From the IMG/VR virus record IMGVR_UViG_3300021247_000155, positions 1 through 47,090 of that record: a stretch of DNA of 47,090 nucleotides; one strand, 5' to 3'. Made by a program: the position numbers and the translations under genes. Under the pieces are notes generated by a model that searched no databases, was not told where the DNA came from, and saw nothing but the letters and a program-made list of their open reading frames with translations. The stretch's first letter is position 1, and each line of letters starts with the position of its first letter. Shown one piece after another: positions 1 to 36,330 of this stretch. The stretch is from a virus.

Positions 1-771
1 CCTGACCACTCCTATGTGCCAACAAACATCAAAAAGTTAGATGATAAAATCCTTGGGCTTATGCAGGGACACTTTACGGTTATCAAGGGTCCGACAGGGA
101 TCGGAAAAAGTGAGCTAATGCGTTATCTAGAGTATAACTTTATCAGCAACTATCCAGAAGTAACCTTTGCGTCTTGGCATTTGGAAGAGACTAAACTTCG
201 TGGCATCCTTGGTCTTGTGTCATATGCCCTCAAGGACAACCTAACACGTAAAGACCTGATTACTGACAAGAACCGTATGGCTGATGTAGAGGAGTCTATT
301 AAGAGTATTACCAACAAGTCTGGCTATATGCAGTTCCACTTGCGTGAGCAGGATGGTGCGGAAGCCCTGATCGACCAAATCCGAATTCTTACTCAAGTCT
401 ATGGGTGCAAATATGTCCTATTCGAGCCTATCCAAGATGTTATCAATACGGGTTCAGAAGATAGCAAAGAGCCTGTCTTGGCTGACCTTGCTGTTCGCCT
501 TTCAAAACTTGCTGCCGATCTAAATGTGGGTATCGTGACTATTGCCCACACAAACGAAGATGGGGAGGTTAAATATTGCAAGATGATCGGGCAACGGGCC
601 TCTGTCGTTATTGACTTGACGCGGGACAAAGACAGTGATAATCATCTTGATAAGAACACTTTGAAGCTGGTAGTTAAGAAGAATCGTCCTTGTAGCCTTG
701 AGGGTGAAGCTGGTTCTATGGTGTTTGATCAGGATACGTTTACTTTGGCAGAACTTGGGGGTGGGTGGTGA
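1..771 (+). CDS. Primase-helicase, C-terminal helicase part (5' end outside window)
   Basis: RecA-fold replicative helicase domain that unwinds DNA at the phage fork, T7 gp4 type. The frame is open to base 1, so the true start lies upstream. Walker A GPTGIGKS is at visible residues 30-37. A Walker B-like hydrophobic strand (KYVLFEP) follows near residue 137, then an AHT motif near 182. The zinc-finger and TOPRIM part begins at 46597 at the other end of the window, so one gene appears split by the cut point. By comparison with T7 gp4, roughly 130 residues between TOPRIM and Walker A are missing. A separate DnaB-like helicase is the alternative. Confidence 0.85.
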   Translation, partial: PDHSYVPTNIKKLDDKILGLMQGHFTVIKGPTGIGKSELMRYLEYNFISNYPEVTFASWHLEETKLRGILGLVSYALKDNLTRKDLITDKNRMADVEESIKSITNKSGYMQFHLREQDGAEALIDQIRILTQVYGCKYVLFEPIQDVINTGSEDSKEPVLADLAVRLSKLAADLNVGIVTIAHTNEDGEVKYCKMIGQRASVVIDLTRDKDSDNHLDKNTLKLVVKKNRPCSLEGEAGSMVFDQDTFTLAELGGGW

Positions 772-772
772 T

Positions 773-946
773 ATGGGGGCAGATATGACGATTGATGGAG
801 CCTTTGATGATTGGCTAGATGGGCTGACACCAACTAACAGTGTGCGAAGGGAGTGTGTTGATCCGAAAGACATCAATAAACTTCGCTGGGCATTCACTTT
901 TGGTTGGCTATTAGCACTGGATTATAAGGAAAAAGAGGTAGAATGA
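773..946 (+). CDS. Hypothetical protein, 57 aa
   Basis: Small acidic protein starting one base after the helicase stop (TGATATG); an in-frame ATG at 785 is a possible alternative start. The C-terminal half (LRWAFTFGWLLALDYKEKEVE region) is hydrophobic and aromatic but too short to call a membrane segment. It overlaps the next gene by 4 bases (ATGA), so it is translationally coupled inside the replication operon. No family recognised. Confidence 0.55.
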   Translation: MGADMTIDGAFDDWLDGLTPTNSVRRECVDPKDINKLRWAFTFGWLLALDYKEKEVE

Positions 947-1263
947 AACTGTATATTGCTATTTTAGACGAGTTTCCTGACTATATGGCCCCAACCCTAG
1001 TCGCCCACTCTGTTTTAGGGGCACATCTTGTTTTTCTAAATGACCCGATTTACCAGAGTTGGCTAAACCACAGCTTCAAAAAGTGTGTGTTGAGGGTTAA
1101 TCAAAAGGAGTTCAGTAAGATATCTGAACTTGGCTCTGTATATCTGGGGCACGAAAATACTACACTAGGCGGTAGGAAAAGTTGTGCCGTTGTCCGGCCT
1201 TACGTAGATAGTAAGGACATCCCAAATGCGCTAAAATTTGCAAAGCTGTGGAAACCCGCATGA
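943..1263 (+). CDS. Conserved phage protein, possibly PTH2-like fold, 106 aa
   Basis: Starts in an ATGA overlap with the upstream gene and ends in an ATGA overlap with the next. The sequence has an N-terminal strand (KLYIAILDEFPD) followed by LVAHSVLGAHL, which loosely recalls the AQ-xx-HA helix of peptidyl-tRNA hydrolase 2. The ending KFAKLW fits a conserved C-terminal strand and helix. Similar short proteins sit near the polymerase in T7-like replication modules and are sometimes named peptidyl-tRNA hydrolase. That assignment is from memory and tentative; no catalytic residue can be defended here. Confidence 0.5.
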   Translation: MKLYIAILDEFPDYMAPTLVAHSVLGAHLVFLNDPIYQSWLNHSFKKCVLRVNQKEFSKISELGSVYLGHENTTLGGRKSCAVVRPYVDSKDIPNALKFAKLWKPA

Positions 1264-1847
1264 AGTTTATCGTTCTGGATAGCGAAAGTGACGGCTTCTG
1301 GAAAGATGCCACCAAGCTACATTGTGTCGAAGACCATATCAAGAAGCATCTTTCTTATGAGCCAAACACTGGCAAAGTTTTTTGGAAAATCTCTCCAAAC
1401 AACCGTATTAAAGAAGGTCAAGAAGTTGCCTGCAAAGATGGTCAGAGAGGTCAAATTACTGTAACTTTTGAAGGTAAGTCTAAAAACTATAGATTGCACA
1501 GAGTTGCTTGGTTGTTGCATTACGGCTCTTGGCCTAAGGGTTGCCTTGACCATGTTAATAACAACCCCAGTGATAATCGTATAGAAAATCTGAGAGAGTG
1601 TTCTCATTCTGACAACATGAAAAACCAAAAGGTCCGAAGAGACAGTTCCACAGGTTACAAAGGTGTTTGTTATAGACCCAGTAAATCTGGTGGTTTTTAT
1701 ACTGCTCAAATTTACTACAATAACAAGTTGCGCTATATTGGCTCTTATAAGACTGCTGAACAAGCTGCATCTGCTTACGATGAAGCGGCCATACTACTGC
1801 ACAAGGAGTTTGCAAAAACAAATGCGGATTATTGTTCTAGACAGTGA
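1260..1847 (+). CDS. HNH-AP2 homing endonuclease fused to a duplicated DNA polymerase N-terminus
   Basis: The first 23 residues (MKFIVLDSESDGFW...) are a copy of the DNA polymerase N-terminus, 19 of 23 identical to the intact polymerase at 1822. They run in frame into an HNH endonuclease. The HNH core has LHRVAW, then LDHVNNNPSDNRIENLR (catalytic H of DH, and the two N), near residues 75-110. An AP2-type DNA-binding domain follows (GYKGV...YIGSYKTAEQAA...YDEAA, about 130-180). The start ATG overlaps the previous stop (ATGA). The last 26 bases overlap the polymerase start and contain its ribosome binding site. Probable role: free-standing homing nuclease cutting an endonuclease-free polymerase gene. 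Confidence 0.88.
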   Translation: MKFIVLDSESDGFWKDATKLHCVEDHIKKHLSYEPNTGKVFWKISPNNRIKEGQEVACKDGQRGQITVTFEGKSKNYRLHRVAWLLHYGSWPKGCLDHVNNNPSDNRIENLRECSHSDNMKNQKVRRDSSTGYKGVCYRPSKSGGFYTAQIYYNNKLRYIGSYKTAEQAASAYDEAAILLHKEFAKTNADYCSRQ

Positions 1848-3696
1848 ATCGGACAATTTTTGGAAGAATGCTACAAAACTTCACTGCGTGGCTTGGACAG
1901 AAGATGGAGAGACGTTCCACCATACAAACAGTTATGATGAAATCCGCTTTCTACTGAATAGCCCTGACAAGCGCATTGTTTGCCACAATGCTATTCGGCA
2001 CGATCTGCCCACCTTCAATAAGTTGCTTGGCACTGATCTTAAGTATACCGACTTCGTAGACACCTTGGCCTTGTCATGGTATATCAACTTTGAACGTGAT
2101 CGCCATGGTCTTGAAAGCTATGGAAATGACTATGGGGTTCCTAAGCCCAAAGTTGAGGATTGGACCAACCTAACCTACGAAGAATATGCTCATCGCTGCG
2201 TTGAGGATGTAAAGATCAACTGGCTTATGTGGCAAGATATGCTGCGTAGGCTCAAGATGCTCTATCCAGTTGAAGCGGACATGCTGCGTCTTATCGACTA
2301 TCTAGGGTTCAAGATGGACTGCGCCCTAGAGGCTGAGACCATGATGGTAAAGCTGGACGTAGAACGCGCCCAGAAGAACTATGATAAACTTGAAGCCATG
2401 GAAGCAGAGAAGGTCGTAGAACTCGCTAAGGCTATGCCAAAGAAACCAATCTATAGGGTTGTAAACAAGCCTAAGATCATGGTGAAGAAGGATGGCTCAC
2501 TGAGTGTAGCAGGGGCTAATTGGGTGCAGACTCTAAAGGATTTGAAGCTGCCACCAAATACTGCTGGCCCTGTAAACGTCTTGGTTTCAATGGAGGACGC
2601 CAACCCTAAGTCCAATGTGCAGGTCAAAGATTGGCTCTTCAGTAATGGCTGGGAACCTGATCACTTCAAGTTTGACCGTAACAAGGACACTGGTGAAGAA
2701 CGGATGATCCCTCAGATCAGATACCTGAAGGGTCACCCGAAGGAGGGTGAACTGTGTGATTCCATCTTGGCTCTTGCAGAGCATACCCCCTCAGTAGAAA
2801 TTCTGGATGGTTTGACTGTTATCCAGCATCGCAAGGGTTTCTTCAAGGGTATGCTAGAGAGCCACAAAGATGGTTGGTTGGTGGCAGGTATTGAAGGGTT
2901 GACTAACACCTTCCGCTTCAAACACAGAAAACCTTTGGCGAACATTCCGAAGGTAGACAAACCTTGGGGCGACGAGATCAGGGGGTGCCTTATTGCCCCT
3001 GAAGGTAAGGTGTTGTGTGGTGCTGACGCAGTTTCCCTAGAGGATACCACCAAGCGACATTACATGAAACCGTTCGACCCAGACTATGTGGAAATTATGT
3101 CTCAGCCGGGGTGGGACCCACACCTTGACCTTGCGGTATTTGCTGGGGCTTGTTCAGCAGAGGATGTAGAGAGGCATAAGACTGGTGAGCGTAGCCTGAA
3201 AGCCCTACGTAGTAAGTTCAAGCAGACTAACTATAGTGCTGTCTACGGTATCGGTGCCACCAAACTAGCTAGGGAAACTGGCCTAAGTAAACCAGAGGCT
3301 CAGAAGCTGCTTGACGCCTATTGGCAACGCAATCACTCTGTAACTAAGGCTGTAGAGAAGTTTCAGATCGAAGTCATTGGCCCTTATATGTGGTTGAAAA
3401 ACCCTGTATCTGGTTTCTGGCATAACCTTCGTGCTGAGAAAGATGCGTTCTCTACAGCCAACCAATCGACAGGTGTCTACTGCTTTGACACTTGGCTTTA
3501 CTATGTGCGACAAGCTGGTATTAAGATTGCCATGCAGTTTCACGATGAAGAGGGACACTACATTGAACGTGGCTCAGAAGTAGAAAACGAAAAGGTTCTG
3601 CGGGAGGCTATCCGCAAGACCAATGAGAAATTGAAACTCAATGTCCTTCTTGATATCGATGTTCAACACGGGGATAATTACGCCCAGACCCACTAA
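1822..3696 (+). CDS. DNA polymerase I, family A, with 3'-5' exonuclease, 624 aa
   Basis: Replicative phage polymerase. The N-terminal DEDD exonuclease shows IVLDSESD (motif I), HNAIRHDLPTF (motif II) and YAHRCVEDVKINW (motif III). Polymerase motif A is around GADAVSLED, motif B (O helix) is RSLKALRSKFKQTNYSAVYG, and motif C is QFHDEEG. An upstream open frame extends to 1663 but is only the shadow of the endonuclease. ATG 1822 is chosen because it restores the conserved exonuclease start and has AAGGAG at 1803-1808, 13 bases upstream, inside the endonuclease gene. At 624 aa it is a compact T7-type polymerase without the N-terminal 5'-nuclease domain, which is encoded separately at 6156. Confidence 0.93.
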   Translation: MRIIVLDSESDNFWKNATKLHCVAWTEDGETFHHTNSYDEIRFLLNSPDKRIVCHNAIRHDLPTFNKLLGTDLKYTDFVDTLALSWYINFERDRHGLESYGNDYGVPKPKVEDWTNLTYEEYAHRCVEDVKINWLMWQDMLRRLKMLYPVEADMLRLIDYLGFKMDCALEAETMMVKLDVERAQKNYDKLEAMEAEKVVELAKAMPKKPIYRVVNKPKIMVKKDGSLSVAGANWVQTLKDLKLPPNTAGPVNVLVSMEDANPKSNVQVKDWLFSNGWEPDHFKFDRNKDTGEERMIPQIRYLKGHPKEGELCDSILALAEHTPSVEILDGLTVIQHRKGFFKGMLESHKDGWLVAGIEGLTNTFRFKHRKPLANIPKVDKPWGDEIRGCLIAPEGKVLCGADAVSLEDTTKRHYMKPFDPDYVEIMSQPGWDPHLDLAVFAGACSAEDVERHKTGERSLKALRSKFKQTNYSAVYGIGATKLARETGLSKPEAQKLLDAYWQRNHSVTKAVEKFQIEVIGPYMWLKNPVSGFWHNLRAEKDAFSTANQSTGVYCFDTWLYYVRQAGIKIAMQFHDEEGHYIERGSEVENEKVLREAIRKTNEKLKLNVLLDIDVQHGDNYAQTH

Positions 3697-3702
3697 GTAA
3701 AT

Positions 3703-3738
3703 AATTGTCAGGTTTGACCTTAAAACGACTTGACAATT
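3703..3738. promoter_or_regulatory. Inverted repeat overlapping the ssDNA-binding protein promoter
   Basis: AATTGTCA at 3703-3710 and its reverse complement TGACAATT at 3731-3738 form perfect 8-bp arms. The right arm lies on the -35 hexamer of the following promoter. It may be an operator, or a weak terminator after the polymerase; no U-run follows. Confidence 0.45.
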
Positions 3739-3758
3739 CAGAGCCGACAACCTAAATA
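3730..3758 (+). promoter_or_regulatory. Sigma70-type promoter upstream of the ssDNA-binding protein
   Basis: TTGACA (3730-3735), 17-base spacer, TAAATA (3753-3758). It lies in the only sizeable gap of the replication operon and would boost the ssDNA-binding protein and downstream genes. No phage RNA polymerase gene is visible, so the host polymerase is presumed to read it. Confidence 0.7.
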
Positions 3759-3787
3759 CAACTTCCACATAAACTCTCGGAGTGAAT

Positions 3788-4387
3788 ATGAGCAACAAAT
3801 CCAAATTCGTCACCATTGATGCAGAACTCGAATATGCACAGGTTTTCTTTGAGAACCGCGATATGGGTAACGATCAGGTAGACCATTCTGATACGGATGG
3901 CATGTATAAAGTTACCTTGATCCTTGACGAAGACAACCGGAACAAAGCCATTGAGGCTGGCGCACCGGAGAAGCAAGGTGCACACCTTCAGTTCAAGCCC
4001 TTTGAACGTGATGGCAAGACGCTCTATAAGACCACTGTTCGTCGTCCCCACTTGCACCCCCGCTTTATGAAGCAAGATGAGAACGGCCAAAACACTGATG
4101 AGCGTCTGGTGGTTGGCCCCCCGAAGGTCTTTGACTTGAATGCAGCCCTTGCAGCTTGGAGTGAAGCTGGTGAGAAGGGCCGTCTTGACGACTATGCACG
4201 GGATTGGACTCATGAAGATGGTCTGATTGGCAATGGAACTAAGGCTAAGGTCAAGTTGGTTATCCAGTCTGGTATTGGTGTCCACGGTAAGGCTAAGGGT
4301 AAGAAGTTTACCCGTGTAGAGTTGGTTGGTATTGCCTTTACTGATCTCGTGGAATACGCTGGTGGGGGTTCTGGTGGGTGGGTTTAA
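3788..4387 (+). CDS. Putative single-stranded DNA-binding protein (T7 gp2.5-like role), 199 aa
   Basis: Follows the polymerase under its own promoter. It has several beta-rich segments (MYKVTLILDEDN, KVKLVIQSGIGV, FTRVELVGIAFTDL), compatible with an OB fold. The ending is Gly-rich (GGGSGGWV) instead of the acidic aromatic tail of classical SSBs. ATG 3788 is preferred over GTG 3782 because CGGAG lies about 8 bases upstream. The role is inferred from position in a T7-type replication module and from fold impression; no diagnostic motif is present. Confidence 0.6.
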   Translation: MSNKSKFVTIDAELEYAQVFFENRDMGNDQVDHSDTDGMYKVTLILDEDNRNKAIEAGAPEKQGAHLQFKPFERDGKTLYKTTVRRPHLHPRFMKQDENGQNTDERLVVGPPKVFDLNAALAAWSEAGEKGRLDDYARDWTHEDGLIGNGTKAKVKLVIQSGIGVHGKAKGKKFTRVELVGIAFTDLVEYAGGGSGGWV

Positions 4388-4429
4388 CCCCCCACTTACC
4401 ACCAACAAAGGATAGAACAAGGGAAACCA

Positions 4430-4615
4430 ATGTATTACGAATTTCTAGCTAAAGATGTAGAAGGCCAACGAGATATCCTGATCTCTCAAGGTGAGGTTGA
4501 GTATCTTGGTGATCTTCTTGAGGCTATGCTCACATTCCTACAGGCTTGTGGCTACTCTTATGCAAAGCAACTATATGTCGTCAAGGACGATGGTGAAGAA
4601 TTGGGGACGCTTTGA
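4430..4615 (+). CDS. Hypothetical protein, 61 aa
   Basis: Acidic small protein with AAGGGA about 6 bases before its ATG. It ends in a TTGA overlap with the thyX start, so the two are probably translationally coupled. No domain recognised; the middle (YLGDLLEAMLTFLQACGYS) is a likely amphipathic helix. Confidence 0.6.
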   Translation: MYYEFLAKDVEGQRDILISQGEVEYLGDLLEAMLTFLQACGYSYAKQLYVVKDDGEELGTL

Positions 4616-5286
4616 AGGTATCAGCTAAACTCATTGCTTTGACGGAACCCGTCATTGGGGTTCCCGCCGCCAATGCAGAGGCTTTGGTGGCTTACTGTGC
4701 ACGGGTGAGCAACCCTTCTAACCAAGATAACCCAGATTACAGCAAACTGCTTGACTACTGCCTTCGGAACAAACACTTCAGTGTCTTCGAGATGGCTAAT
4801 GCTGTAGTTGAAGTCAATGCACCACGGGATATCACACGGCAGCTACTGCGACATCGTTCATTCAGTTTCCAAGAGTTTAGTCAACGATATTCTGACGAGA
4901 TCGAGTTTACCACTCGTGATATTCGTCGTCAGGATACCAAGAACCGTCAGAACTCTATTGACGACTTTCCTGATTACGACAAAGACTTTTTTAGAGGTGG
5001 GACGGACAGTTGGGCCAAAACAGCCCAAATCCTATATAAAAGCATCCTTGATGGTGGTGGGGCTAAAGAGTGCGCTCGTGTTATCCTACCTGAAGGGTTG
5101 ACTATGAGCCGCCTATACGTCAATGGCACTCTGCGCAGTTATTTGACCTACCTACAAGTTCGGTTGGACGAAACTACGCAACTTGAACATAGAATCTTGG
5201 CACAGAAAATAAAAGAGTGCCTTGAGCCAGCTTTCCCAACGGTCTTGGGGAGACTTTTGCAAGAGGCGCAGGATTTAGGTGGGTAG
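4612..5286 (+). CDS. thyX: Flavin-dependent thymidylate synthase ThyX
   Basis: Converts dUMP to dTMP with methylene-tetrahydrofolate and FAD, supplying dTTP for phage replication. The signature RHRSFSFQEFSQR matches the ThyX motif RHR-x7-S-x-R. The C-terminal half has REx-like substrate residues and YLTYLQVRLDETTQLEH, typical of the family. At 224 aa it is full length. The TTG start overlaps the previous TGA (TTGA), a pattern repeated elsewhere in this genome. An HNH endonuclease gene begins inside its last codons. Confidence 0.93.
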   Translation: MKVSAKLIALTEPVIGVPAANAEALVAYCARVSNPSNQDNPDYSKLLDYCLRNKHFSVFEMANAVVEVNAPRDITRQLLRHRSFSFQEFSQRYSDEIEFTTRDIRRQDTKNRQNSIDDFPDYDKDFFRGGTDSWAKTAQILYKSILDGGGAKECARVILPEGLTMSRLYVNGTLRSYLTYLQVRLDETTQLEHRILAQKIKECLEPAFPTVLGRLLQEAQDLGG

Positions 5287-5869
5287 ACCAACTGTAAGAT
5301 TTGTCGGAGAGCGCAAAGGCCACCTTGAAGTTGTTGGGATTATTCCACAAAATAAAAGTGGCCGACACGTTCAATTAGAGATTGTTTGCCATGCTTGTGG
5401 TAAAACCATTACAATGTCTTCTGTAGTCTTTACAAAGTCAAAGTCGTGTGGTTGTGAACGGCACAAATCTGATACTTGGAAAAGAGTTGGCGCTAAAATC
5501 ATGCCGTGGCAACTCGAATATGGAGAGGCCGCAAGAAGGTTACTTGTACTAAGATACAAAAGGTCCGCAAAACAAAAAGGCTTGCCGTTTGAACTAACGA
5601 ATGATGAATTAACCAGATTGTTTAAGTCATCGTGCGCTTACTGTGGAAAGGCAGAGACAAACCTAGTAAAAGGTCTTGGAAAGACTAGTGGAGATTTCGC
5701 TTATGTAGGTCTTGATAGAGTTGACCCATTCAAGGGTTATACGCAAGATAATGTTGTGCCTTGCTGCTGGTTGTGTAATATGATGAAAAATACACTTACA
5801 CAAGGTGCTTTTATAGGGCATGTCTCTTTGATCTATCAACACTCGAAAGGTAAAAATGACAAAAGCTAA
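5279..5869 (+). CDS. HNH homing endonuclease downstream of thyX, 196 aa
   Basis: The GTG start lies 8 bases inside the thyX end. An N-terminal zinc-ribbon-like region has CHACG and a CGC pair (about 38-60). The HNH core is CAYCG, then GLDRVDPFKGYTQDNVVPCCWLCNMMKN (about 125-170), with the ββα-metal arrangement of C-x2-C HNH enzymes. No AP2 domain is present, so it is a different lineage from the endonucleases at 1260 and 12758. Likely a free-standing homing nuclease targeting thyX or the neighbouring sequence. Confidence 0.85.
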   Translation: MGRPTVRFVGERKGHLEVVGIIPQNKSGRHVQLEIVCHACGKTITMSSVVFTKSKSCGCERHKSDTWKRVGAKIMPWQLEYGEAARRLLVLRYKRSAKQKGLPFELTNDELTRLFKSSCAYCGKAETNLVKGLGKTSGDFAYVGLDRVDPFKGYTQDNVVPCCWLCNMMKNTLTQGAFIGHVSLIYQHSKGKNDKS

Positions 5870-36135: not shown

Positions 36136-36211
36136 TGGTGCCACCTGAGTGAATCGAACACTCTATCTTCGGGTTACAAATCCGTTGCATCGCCAGCAAT
36201 GCTTAGGTGGC
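36136..36211 (-). tRNA. tRNA-Thr(TGT)
   Basis: 76 nt with encoded CCA. Acceptor GCCACCT/AGGTGGC is perfect. D stem is GCAT/ATGC, T arm GAGTG-TTCGATT-CACTC. The anticodon loop TTTGTAA gives UGU, reading ACA. The anticodon stem has an A-C and an A-A mismatch, so it may be weak. Lies in the late leader, upstream of TerS. Confidence 0.82.
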
Positions 36212-36215
36212 GATT

Positions 36216-36249
36216 TGGTAGTTGTTCGCTCTGCCATTGAGCCACAACA
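36216..36249 (-). ncRNA. 34-nt tRNA-like minihelix: acceptor stem, D arm and CCA only
   Basis: Read on the minus strand: GTTGT, then a D arm GCTC-AATGGCA-GAGC, then ACAAC and T-ACCA. The acceptor arms pair perfectly and close directly on the D arm; anticodon and T arms are absent. It lies 4 bases from tRNA-Thr and 6 from tRNA-Trp. Most likely an internally deleted tRNA gene. Whether it is processed is unknown. Confidence 0.5.
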
Positions 36250-36255
36250 GTGAAT

Positions 36256-36330
36256 TGGCAAAGGTGCAGGGACTTGCACCCTGTCTAAGAGTTTTGGAGA
36301 CTCCCGGCAGAACTACACTGCATCACCGAT
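36256..36330 (-). tRNA. tRNA-Trp(CCA), partly degenerate
   Basis: 75 nt with encoded CCA. The anticodon arm GGAGT-CTCCAAA-ACTCT has the classic Trp loop. T arm CAGGG-TGCAAGT-CCCTG and D stem GCAG/CTGC are good. The acceptor has two mismatches at the outer end, and the D loop lacks GG, so it may be poorly charged or degenerate. Confidence 0.65.

Follow-up and report, generated by a model that had tools for sequence, protein, structure and literature searches.

In the genome of an uncultivated phage, known from a single metagenomic record, a gene for an HNH/AP2 homing-type endonuclease opens with a version of the first 23 codons of the family A DNA polymerase that follows it, and the intact polymerase starts within the 3' end of the nuclease gene with a second, differently spelled version of the same codons. 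The window analyzed spans a complete IMG/VR virus record (47,090 bases), and the features at this locus are collected in Table 1. We consider it likely that the nuclease entered at the boundary of polymerase codons 23 and 24 together with a diverged polymerase start, or with a whole polymerase, and that the resident 5' end was left in place as its leader. Such an arrangement would show a way for a homing endonuclease to persist in an essential phage gene with neither intron nor intein: it uses the start codon of the gene for itself, and a recoded copy restores the gene.

Table 1. Features of the nuclease-polymerase locus, in positions of the window.
Feature	Position	Strand	Basis or remark
Upstream accessory gene, phrog_5822, unknown function	943..1263	+	Stop overlaps stub start as ATGA
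Stub: putative displaced polymerase codons 1-23, start codon and leader for the nuclease	1260..1328	+	Similarity to polymerase starts
Body of the HNH/AP2 homing-type endonuclease (codons 24-195), lacking its own start codon	1329..1847	+	Family matches, start-codon scan, well-folded model
HNH_3 domain, residues 77-120	1488..1619	+	Pfam PF13392, E 2.5e-17; profile match to I-HmuI 1u3e
AP2-like DNA-binding domain, residues 131-179	1650..1796	+	PF00847, E 6e-6, under the curated cut-off; AP2 structures by profile and fold
AAGGAG, candidate ribosome-binding site of the intact polymerase	1803..1808	+	13-nt spacer; inside the nuclease gene
Overlap of nuclease and polymerase ORFs, 26 nt	1822..1847	+	Nuclease tail ADYCSRQ-stop is the polymerase 5' end read in a second frame
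Diverged (recoded) second copy of polymerase codons 1-23	1822..1890	+	14/17 shared-residue codons unlike the stub
Intact family A DNA polymerase, 624 aa	1822..3696	+	PF00476, phrog_17; colinear with relatives over 1-624

The two copies of polymerase codons 1-23

The nuclease ORF (1260-1847, 195 residues) starts with MKFIVLDSESDGFWKDATKLHCV and the polymerase ORF with MRIIVLDSESDNFWKNATKLHCV. Over 23 codons the two starts agree in 19 residues and in 46 of 69 bases; 18 codons differ, 14 of them synonymously, and the similarity ends abruptly past codon 23. Shuffling the stub residues gives 1.5 matches on average and never more than 8 in 20,000 trials, so the 19 matches observed do not reflect chance. 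An earlier, sequence-only reading of this DNA had reported the duplicated polymerase N-terminus on the HNH gene with its mostly synonymous differences, as well as the restart of the polymerase inside the nuclease end, and it was correct on both points, coordinates included.

With Met and Trp set aside, 14 of the 17 codons for shared residues are spelled differently, compared with 10.55 expected at full synonymous saturation under the codon usage of this genome (P(>=14) 0.057), and the longest exact run in register between the copies is 5 bases. Judged by codon spelling, the pair is therefore no recent tandem duplication. Compared with related polymerases, the window polymerase is the deviating copy at three of the four differing residues (R2, N12 and N16) and the stub at the fourth, F3, which is also present in the relative L114; F13 and C22 are common to both copies. 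GC3 is 0.57 in the stub and 0.44 in the polymerase head, in a segment too short for this value to be used.

We further simulated duplication under a simple model with 400 runs per setting. With a free or weakly constrained stub, none of the 400 runs in any setting gave at most four amino acid differences together with at least 14 synonymous ones, and with a strongly constrained stub (omega 0.1) the observed pattern appeared in at most 0.5% of runs. From this substitution pattern we infer that both copies would have belonged to functional polymerases through almost the whole time since they separated, and that the stub state is recent, on the assumption that the nuclease leader is not itself selected for polymerase residues.

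The nuclease and its leader

The catalytic HNH domain is present, with conserved D97, H98 and N100 followed by D105, N106 and R107. The AP2 domain is counted as present on the combination of a Pfam score of 26.9 bits (cut-off 33.3), a match of the family profile to AP2 structures (E 3.5e-12) and a fold match. The profile of the nuclease family also matches I-HmuI (1u3e, E 1.9e-7), as does the predicted fold. Homology to this family begins at window residue 24 or 25 in most phage and IMG/VR matches, and related nucleases have a Met of their own just at that point (MTIEKMILEHL in L178, MQELTFAYLREAL in L226). The stub is thus not native to the nuclease, and the possibility raised in the sequence-only reading, that these 23 codons are an inherent part of the nuclease family, finds no counterpart among the relatives.

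No in-frame ATG, GTG or TTG occurs between codons 1 and 79 of the nuclease ORF and the HNH domain starts at residue 77, so that a whole nuclease can be made only from the ATG of the stub. A structure model predicts residues 1-12 to be disordered (pLDDT <50) and gives most of the body pLDDT values >90. No Shine-Dalgarno-like motif is found 5' of the stub; the polymerase ATG is preceded by the AAGGAG listed in Table 1. When the codons of the stub are joined to polymerase codon 24 onward, an uninterrupted polymerase of 624 residues results, which defines the extra DNA as 562 bases at the codon 23/24 boundary.

Across about 90 surveyed loci encoding nucleases of the same family, the window alone has a leader copied from a neighboring gene (E 2e-12). 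Two loci considered as further copied leaders, L193 and L253, were rejected since their strong hits are tandem nuclease copies, and PWKp1, INT55, Slant and S19cd, in which the nuclease match extends from before residue 25, have ordinary starts and no copied leader. We also note that in phiKDA1 (L173) the gene of a family member (2477-2971) runs 26 bases into the gene that follows, an overlap as long as that in the window and probably a coincidence. Elsewhere in the window, a second and different HNH-like ORF (5279-5869, named by eye) lies 3' of a ThyX-like gene (4612-5286), and two tRNA genes, Thr(TGT) and Trp(CCA), are found on the minus strand at 36136-36330.

Related phages and the placement of the two copies

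In two polymerase-profile scans of IMG/VR we recovered about 30 distinct polymerases with 55-66% amino acid identity to that of the window, all colinear with it; the nearest described relative is that of Roseobacter phage CRP-6 (51%). None of these roughly 30 relatives has a nuclease of the same family upstream of its polymerase. In nearly all of them the first 69 bases are nearer to the stub than to the window polymerase, with matches of 55 and 42 bases, respectively, in L009, 53 and 45 in L089, 52 and 45 in L016, 52 and 42 in L114, and 49 and 48 in L105. The highest match of any relative is thus 55/69 to the stub and 48/69 to the polymerase head. In L009-L017, moreover, the upstream ORF stops within the ATGA of the polymerase start, just as gene 943-1263 does at the stub. 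The stub-like starts of the relatives and this common coupling place the stub in the ancestral start position, and the comparison with polymerases of nuclease-less relatives that the sequence-only reading had proposed bears out its view that the stub retains an ancestral ATGA coupling.

In L010-L016 a different small gene, likewise ending in ATGA, occupies the slot of gene 943-1263. Genes like the latter occur elsewhere in T5-like phages, Pseudomonas phages and other unrelated ones, and a search for the source of the stub through this gene returned only such unrelated carriers, none with a close relative of the polymerase. A DNA pattern search of viral contigs found no closer relative with the F13/W14 motif, and no relative of the polymerase was found among genome contigs.

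Nucleases of the same family do occur at the other end of the polymerase. In the sister phages L018, L109 and L110 one lies directly 3' of the polymerase, and in L118 (3969-4535), L117 (4353-4919) and L120 (2347-2904) the HNH gene overlaps the polymerase 3' end in another frame. In these last three the nuclease leader comes from reading the codons of the polymerase C-terminus in a different frame, and the polymerase TGA lies within the ATT GAC codons that open the nuclease body. In the nuclease tree the window enzyme clusters with those of other phages, apart from the ones in the sister phages (SH-aLRT 88), and the polymerase therefore seems, from the grouping of these genes, to have been invaded more than once. 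A same-family HNH gene is also found between two annotated DNA polymerase ORFs, possibly a polymerase in pieces, in Klebsiella phage BUCT_49532 (L172, MZ374361.1, 987-3594).

In a tree of the 69 columns the stub falls near L009 and L089, and the polymerase head falls on a long branch near L105. A tree in which the two are forced to be sisters is not rejected (AU p = 0.507, from 69 bases only). Placed on a tree of the rest of the polymerase, the best arrangement treats the head as native and groups the stub with L105, L017 and L106, 1.4 log units better than the sister pair and not significantly so; arrangements with a native stub lie 1.4-2.1 log units below the best, again without significance. 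The head stands out as unusually diverged when compared with L009 and L089, falling within the lowest 2% and 9% of windows of similar amino acid identity, and similarity rises right at codon 24, codons 24-31 matching L089 nearly perfectly. No such step is seen against L105, L017, L106 or the second clade. On average over the relatives, divergence in the head does not exceed that in the remainder of the gene, so that the head alone is not marked as foreign. Trees of the helicase, the polymerase and ThyX, used as a test for import of a whole polymerase, show no significant conflict and place the window as a lone lineage, and the search found no donor or intermediate form. On 69 bases either copy may be the resident one, and the imported tract may have comprised the nuclease and head or also the whole polymerase; the trees of codons 1-23 proposed in the sequence-only reading do not single out a source of the copies.

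Proposed insertion, alternatives and known systems

Homing endonucleases cleave alleles from which they are absent, and repair of the break copies them in, as reviewed for T4 in PMC2988022. In the explanation we favor, the nuclease would have cut or nicked a polymerase near codon 23, and the break would have been repaired from a donor carrying the nuclease together with a diverged polymerase start or a whole polymerase, by homologous exchange on the right side and, on the left, by a non-homologous join that kept the frame, a course of events that would yield exactly the anatomy observed. The displaced resident 5' end would have become the leader of the nuclease, bringing a start-less nuclease under the polymerase's own start. 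Ribosomes would enter the nuclease through coupling from the upstream gene and would reach the polymerase at its own ATG. Since the intact gene rebuilds the codon 23/24 boundary, its diverged first 23 codons would be what prevents recutting, and the divergence of the copies, with no long run in register, would also block deletion of the nuclease by recombination between them. The sequence-only reading had proposed such an import from a relative, and this is supported in part: the foreignness of the stub to the nuclease and the stub-like starts of relatives agree with it, and the trees neither resolve the source nor prove that a whole polymerase was imported.

Cutting by the nuclease, its target site and its mobility are putative, and immunity of the recoded copy, as the sequence-only reading had suggested, is plausible. 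With the same 23-codon segment spelled in two ways, this genome provides ready substrates for asking whether silent divergence protects the carrier of a homing nuclease. We regard it as a rather speculative extension that the locus is a home-and-rescue element, in which a 562-base cassette of start-less HNH nuclease and recoded head would insert at polymerase codon 23/24, take the start codon of its target for its expression and at once restore an uncuttable polymerase.

A narrower version of the favored event has the smallest imported tract, a minimal mobile cassette equal to the 562-base insert, in which nuclease and recoded head replaced codons 1-23 and everything from codon 24 onward is resident. 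This version, an exact mirror of the fungal mORFs discussed below, is possible rather than likely: it accounts for the complete gene obtained from the joined flanks and for the divergence profile against L009 and L089, but not for the missing codon-24 step against the other relatives, and the stub-native placements are the poorer ones, if not significantly. A tandem (target-site) duplication of the 5' end at insertion, followed by selection on the stub protein within the nuclease or its leader that left mostly silent changes, appears improbable to us. The residues F13 and C22 common to both copies would suit it and so would the sister relation that the trees do not reject, but silent divergence is at or past saturation where a simple tandem duplication would be expected to leave little, strong constraint in the simulations hardly ever reproduces the pattern, the first 12 residues of the stub are predicted to be disordered, and related nucleases do without a stub. 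The simple duplication that the sequence-only reading had set against its own proposal is accordingly disfavored by the combination of saturated silent sites and conserved residues, which an idle stub does not reproduce; the sister relation of the copies is neither shown nor rejected.

The sister phages suggest another origin, in which the nuclease was once 3' of a polymerase, a second polymerase arrived behind it and the old one was mostly deleted. Same-family nucleases that directly follow or overlap the polymerase 3' end (as in L018, L109, L118 and L120) make this conceivable, but the window nuclease groups elsewhere, and we give this origin little credence. HNH genes are often intron-borne, and a nuclease in frame with the stub could also lie within an intron, an intein or a bypassed segment, with stub codon 23 joined to polymerase codon 24. 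This is the least credible of the alternatives, since the gap is 562 bases, the intact polymerase start makes joining needless, and no splicing domain is found in the protein. A group I intron was rejected because no ribozyme core surrounds the ORF (no Rfam match in 700-4500 at E values up to 1), and an intein because Pfam shows only HNH_3 and AP2 and the intact polymerase restarts behind the nuclease. Finally, a single record could be a chimera of metagenome assembly, but the architecture is in frame and start-dependent, no repeat of at least 13 bases was found at either junction and no run in register between the copies exceeds 5 bases, which argues against repeat-driven assembly and makes a chimera very unlikely.

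Several phage systems share elements of this arrangement. The T4 seg and mob genes (PMC2988022) and the IPA-HNH genes (PMC10448857) are, like the window nuclease, intronless genes, HNH with or without AP2, beside essential replication genes, and 29% of HNH/AP2 genes have a DNA polymerase gene nearby (PMC10448857). The free-standing endonuclease genes of T4 are intergenic (PMC2988022), whereas the window nuclease starts within its presumed former target gene, on the codons of that gene. In phage Aeh1 (cited in PMC2988022) the HNH gene mobE is likewise inserted in a protein gene, nrdA, but the split nrdA works in pieces, whereas the window has a complete polymerase behind the insert. The methylase gene of ShiLan also contains a non-splicing HNH insertion; there the HNH gene lies in a different frame and reading of the host gene continues across it (PMC11855218), whereas the HNH gene of the window is in frame and ends the old frame. 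I-HmuI, matched by profile and fold, is intron-encoded (PMC2988022), and no intron was found in the window. We found no described phage case of this arrangement in the open-access literature searched.

The closest parallel comes from the mitochondria of Glomus and Allomyces, in which mobile endonuclease ORFs carry a foreign C-terminal gene end and the native end is displaced (PMC3630166). These mORF hybrids comprise Allomyces atp6 and Glomus atp6, atp9, cox2 and nad3, and the two Glomus atp6 ends are 63.5% identical in nucleotides and 91% in amino acids, one copy being 91.2% identical in nucleotides to a close relative (PMC3630166). As in the window, the endonuclease is housed in a protein gene of which one end is present in a second, silently diverged copy, and the displaced native end clusters with relatives; correspondingly, the two window copies share 46/69 bases and the stub up to 55/69 with relatives. 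The hybrids differ in replacing the C-terminal end and leaving over the native 3' end, whereas in the window the 5' end is duplicated and expression of the nuclease depends on the displaced native piece. They also encode LAGLIDADG or GIY-YIG enzymes, as opposed to the HNH/AP2 nuclease in a phage. The window locus thus appears to work like a fungal mORF hybrid in 5' mirror image, although we do not class it as a member. As fungal mitochondria offer a documented example of the same solution at the opposite end of a gene, phages may have come to it independently.
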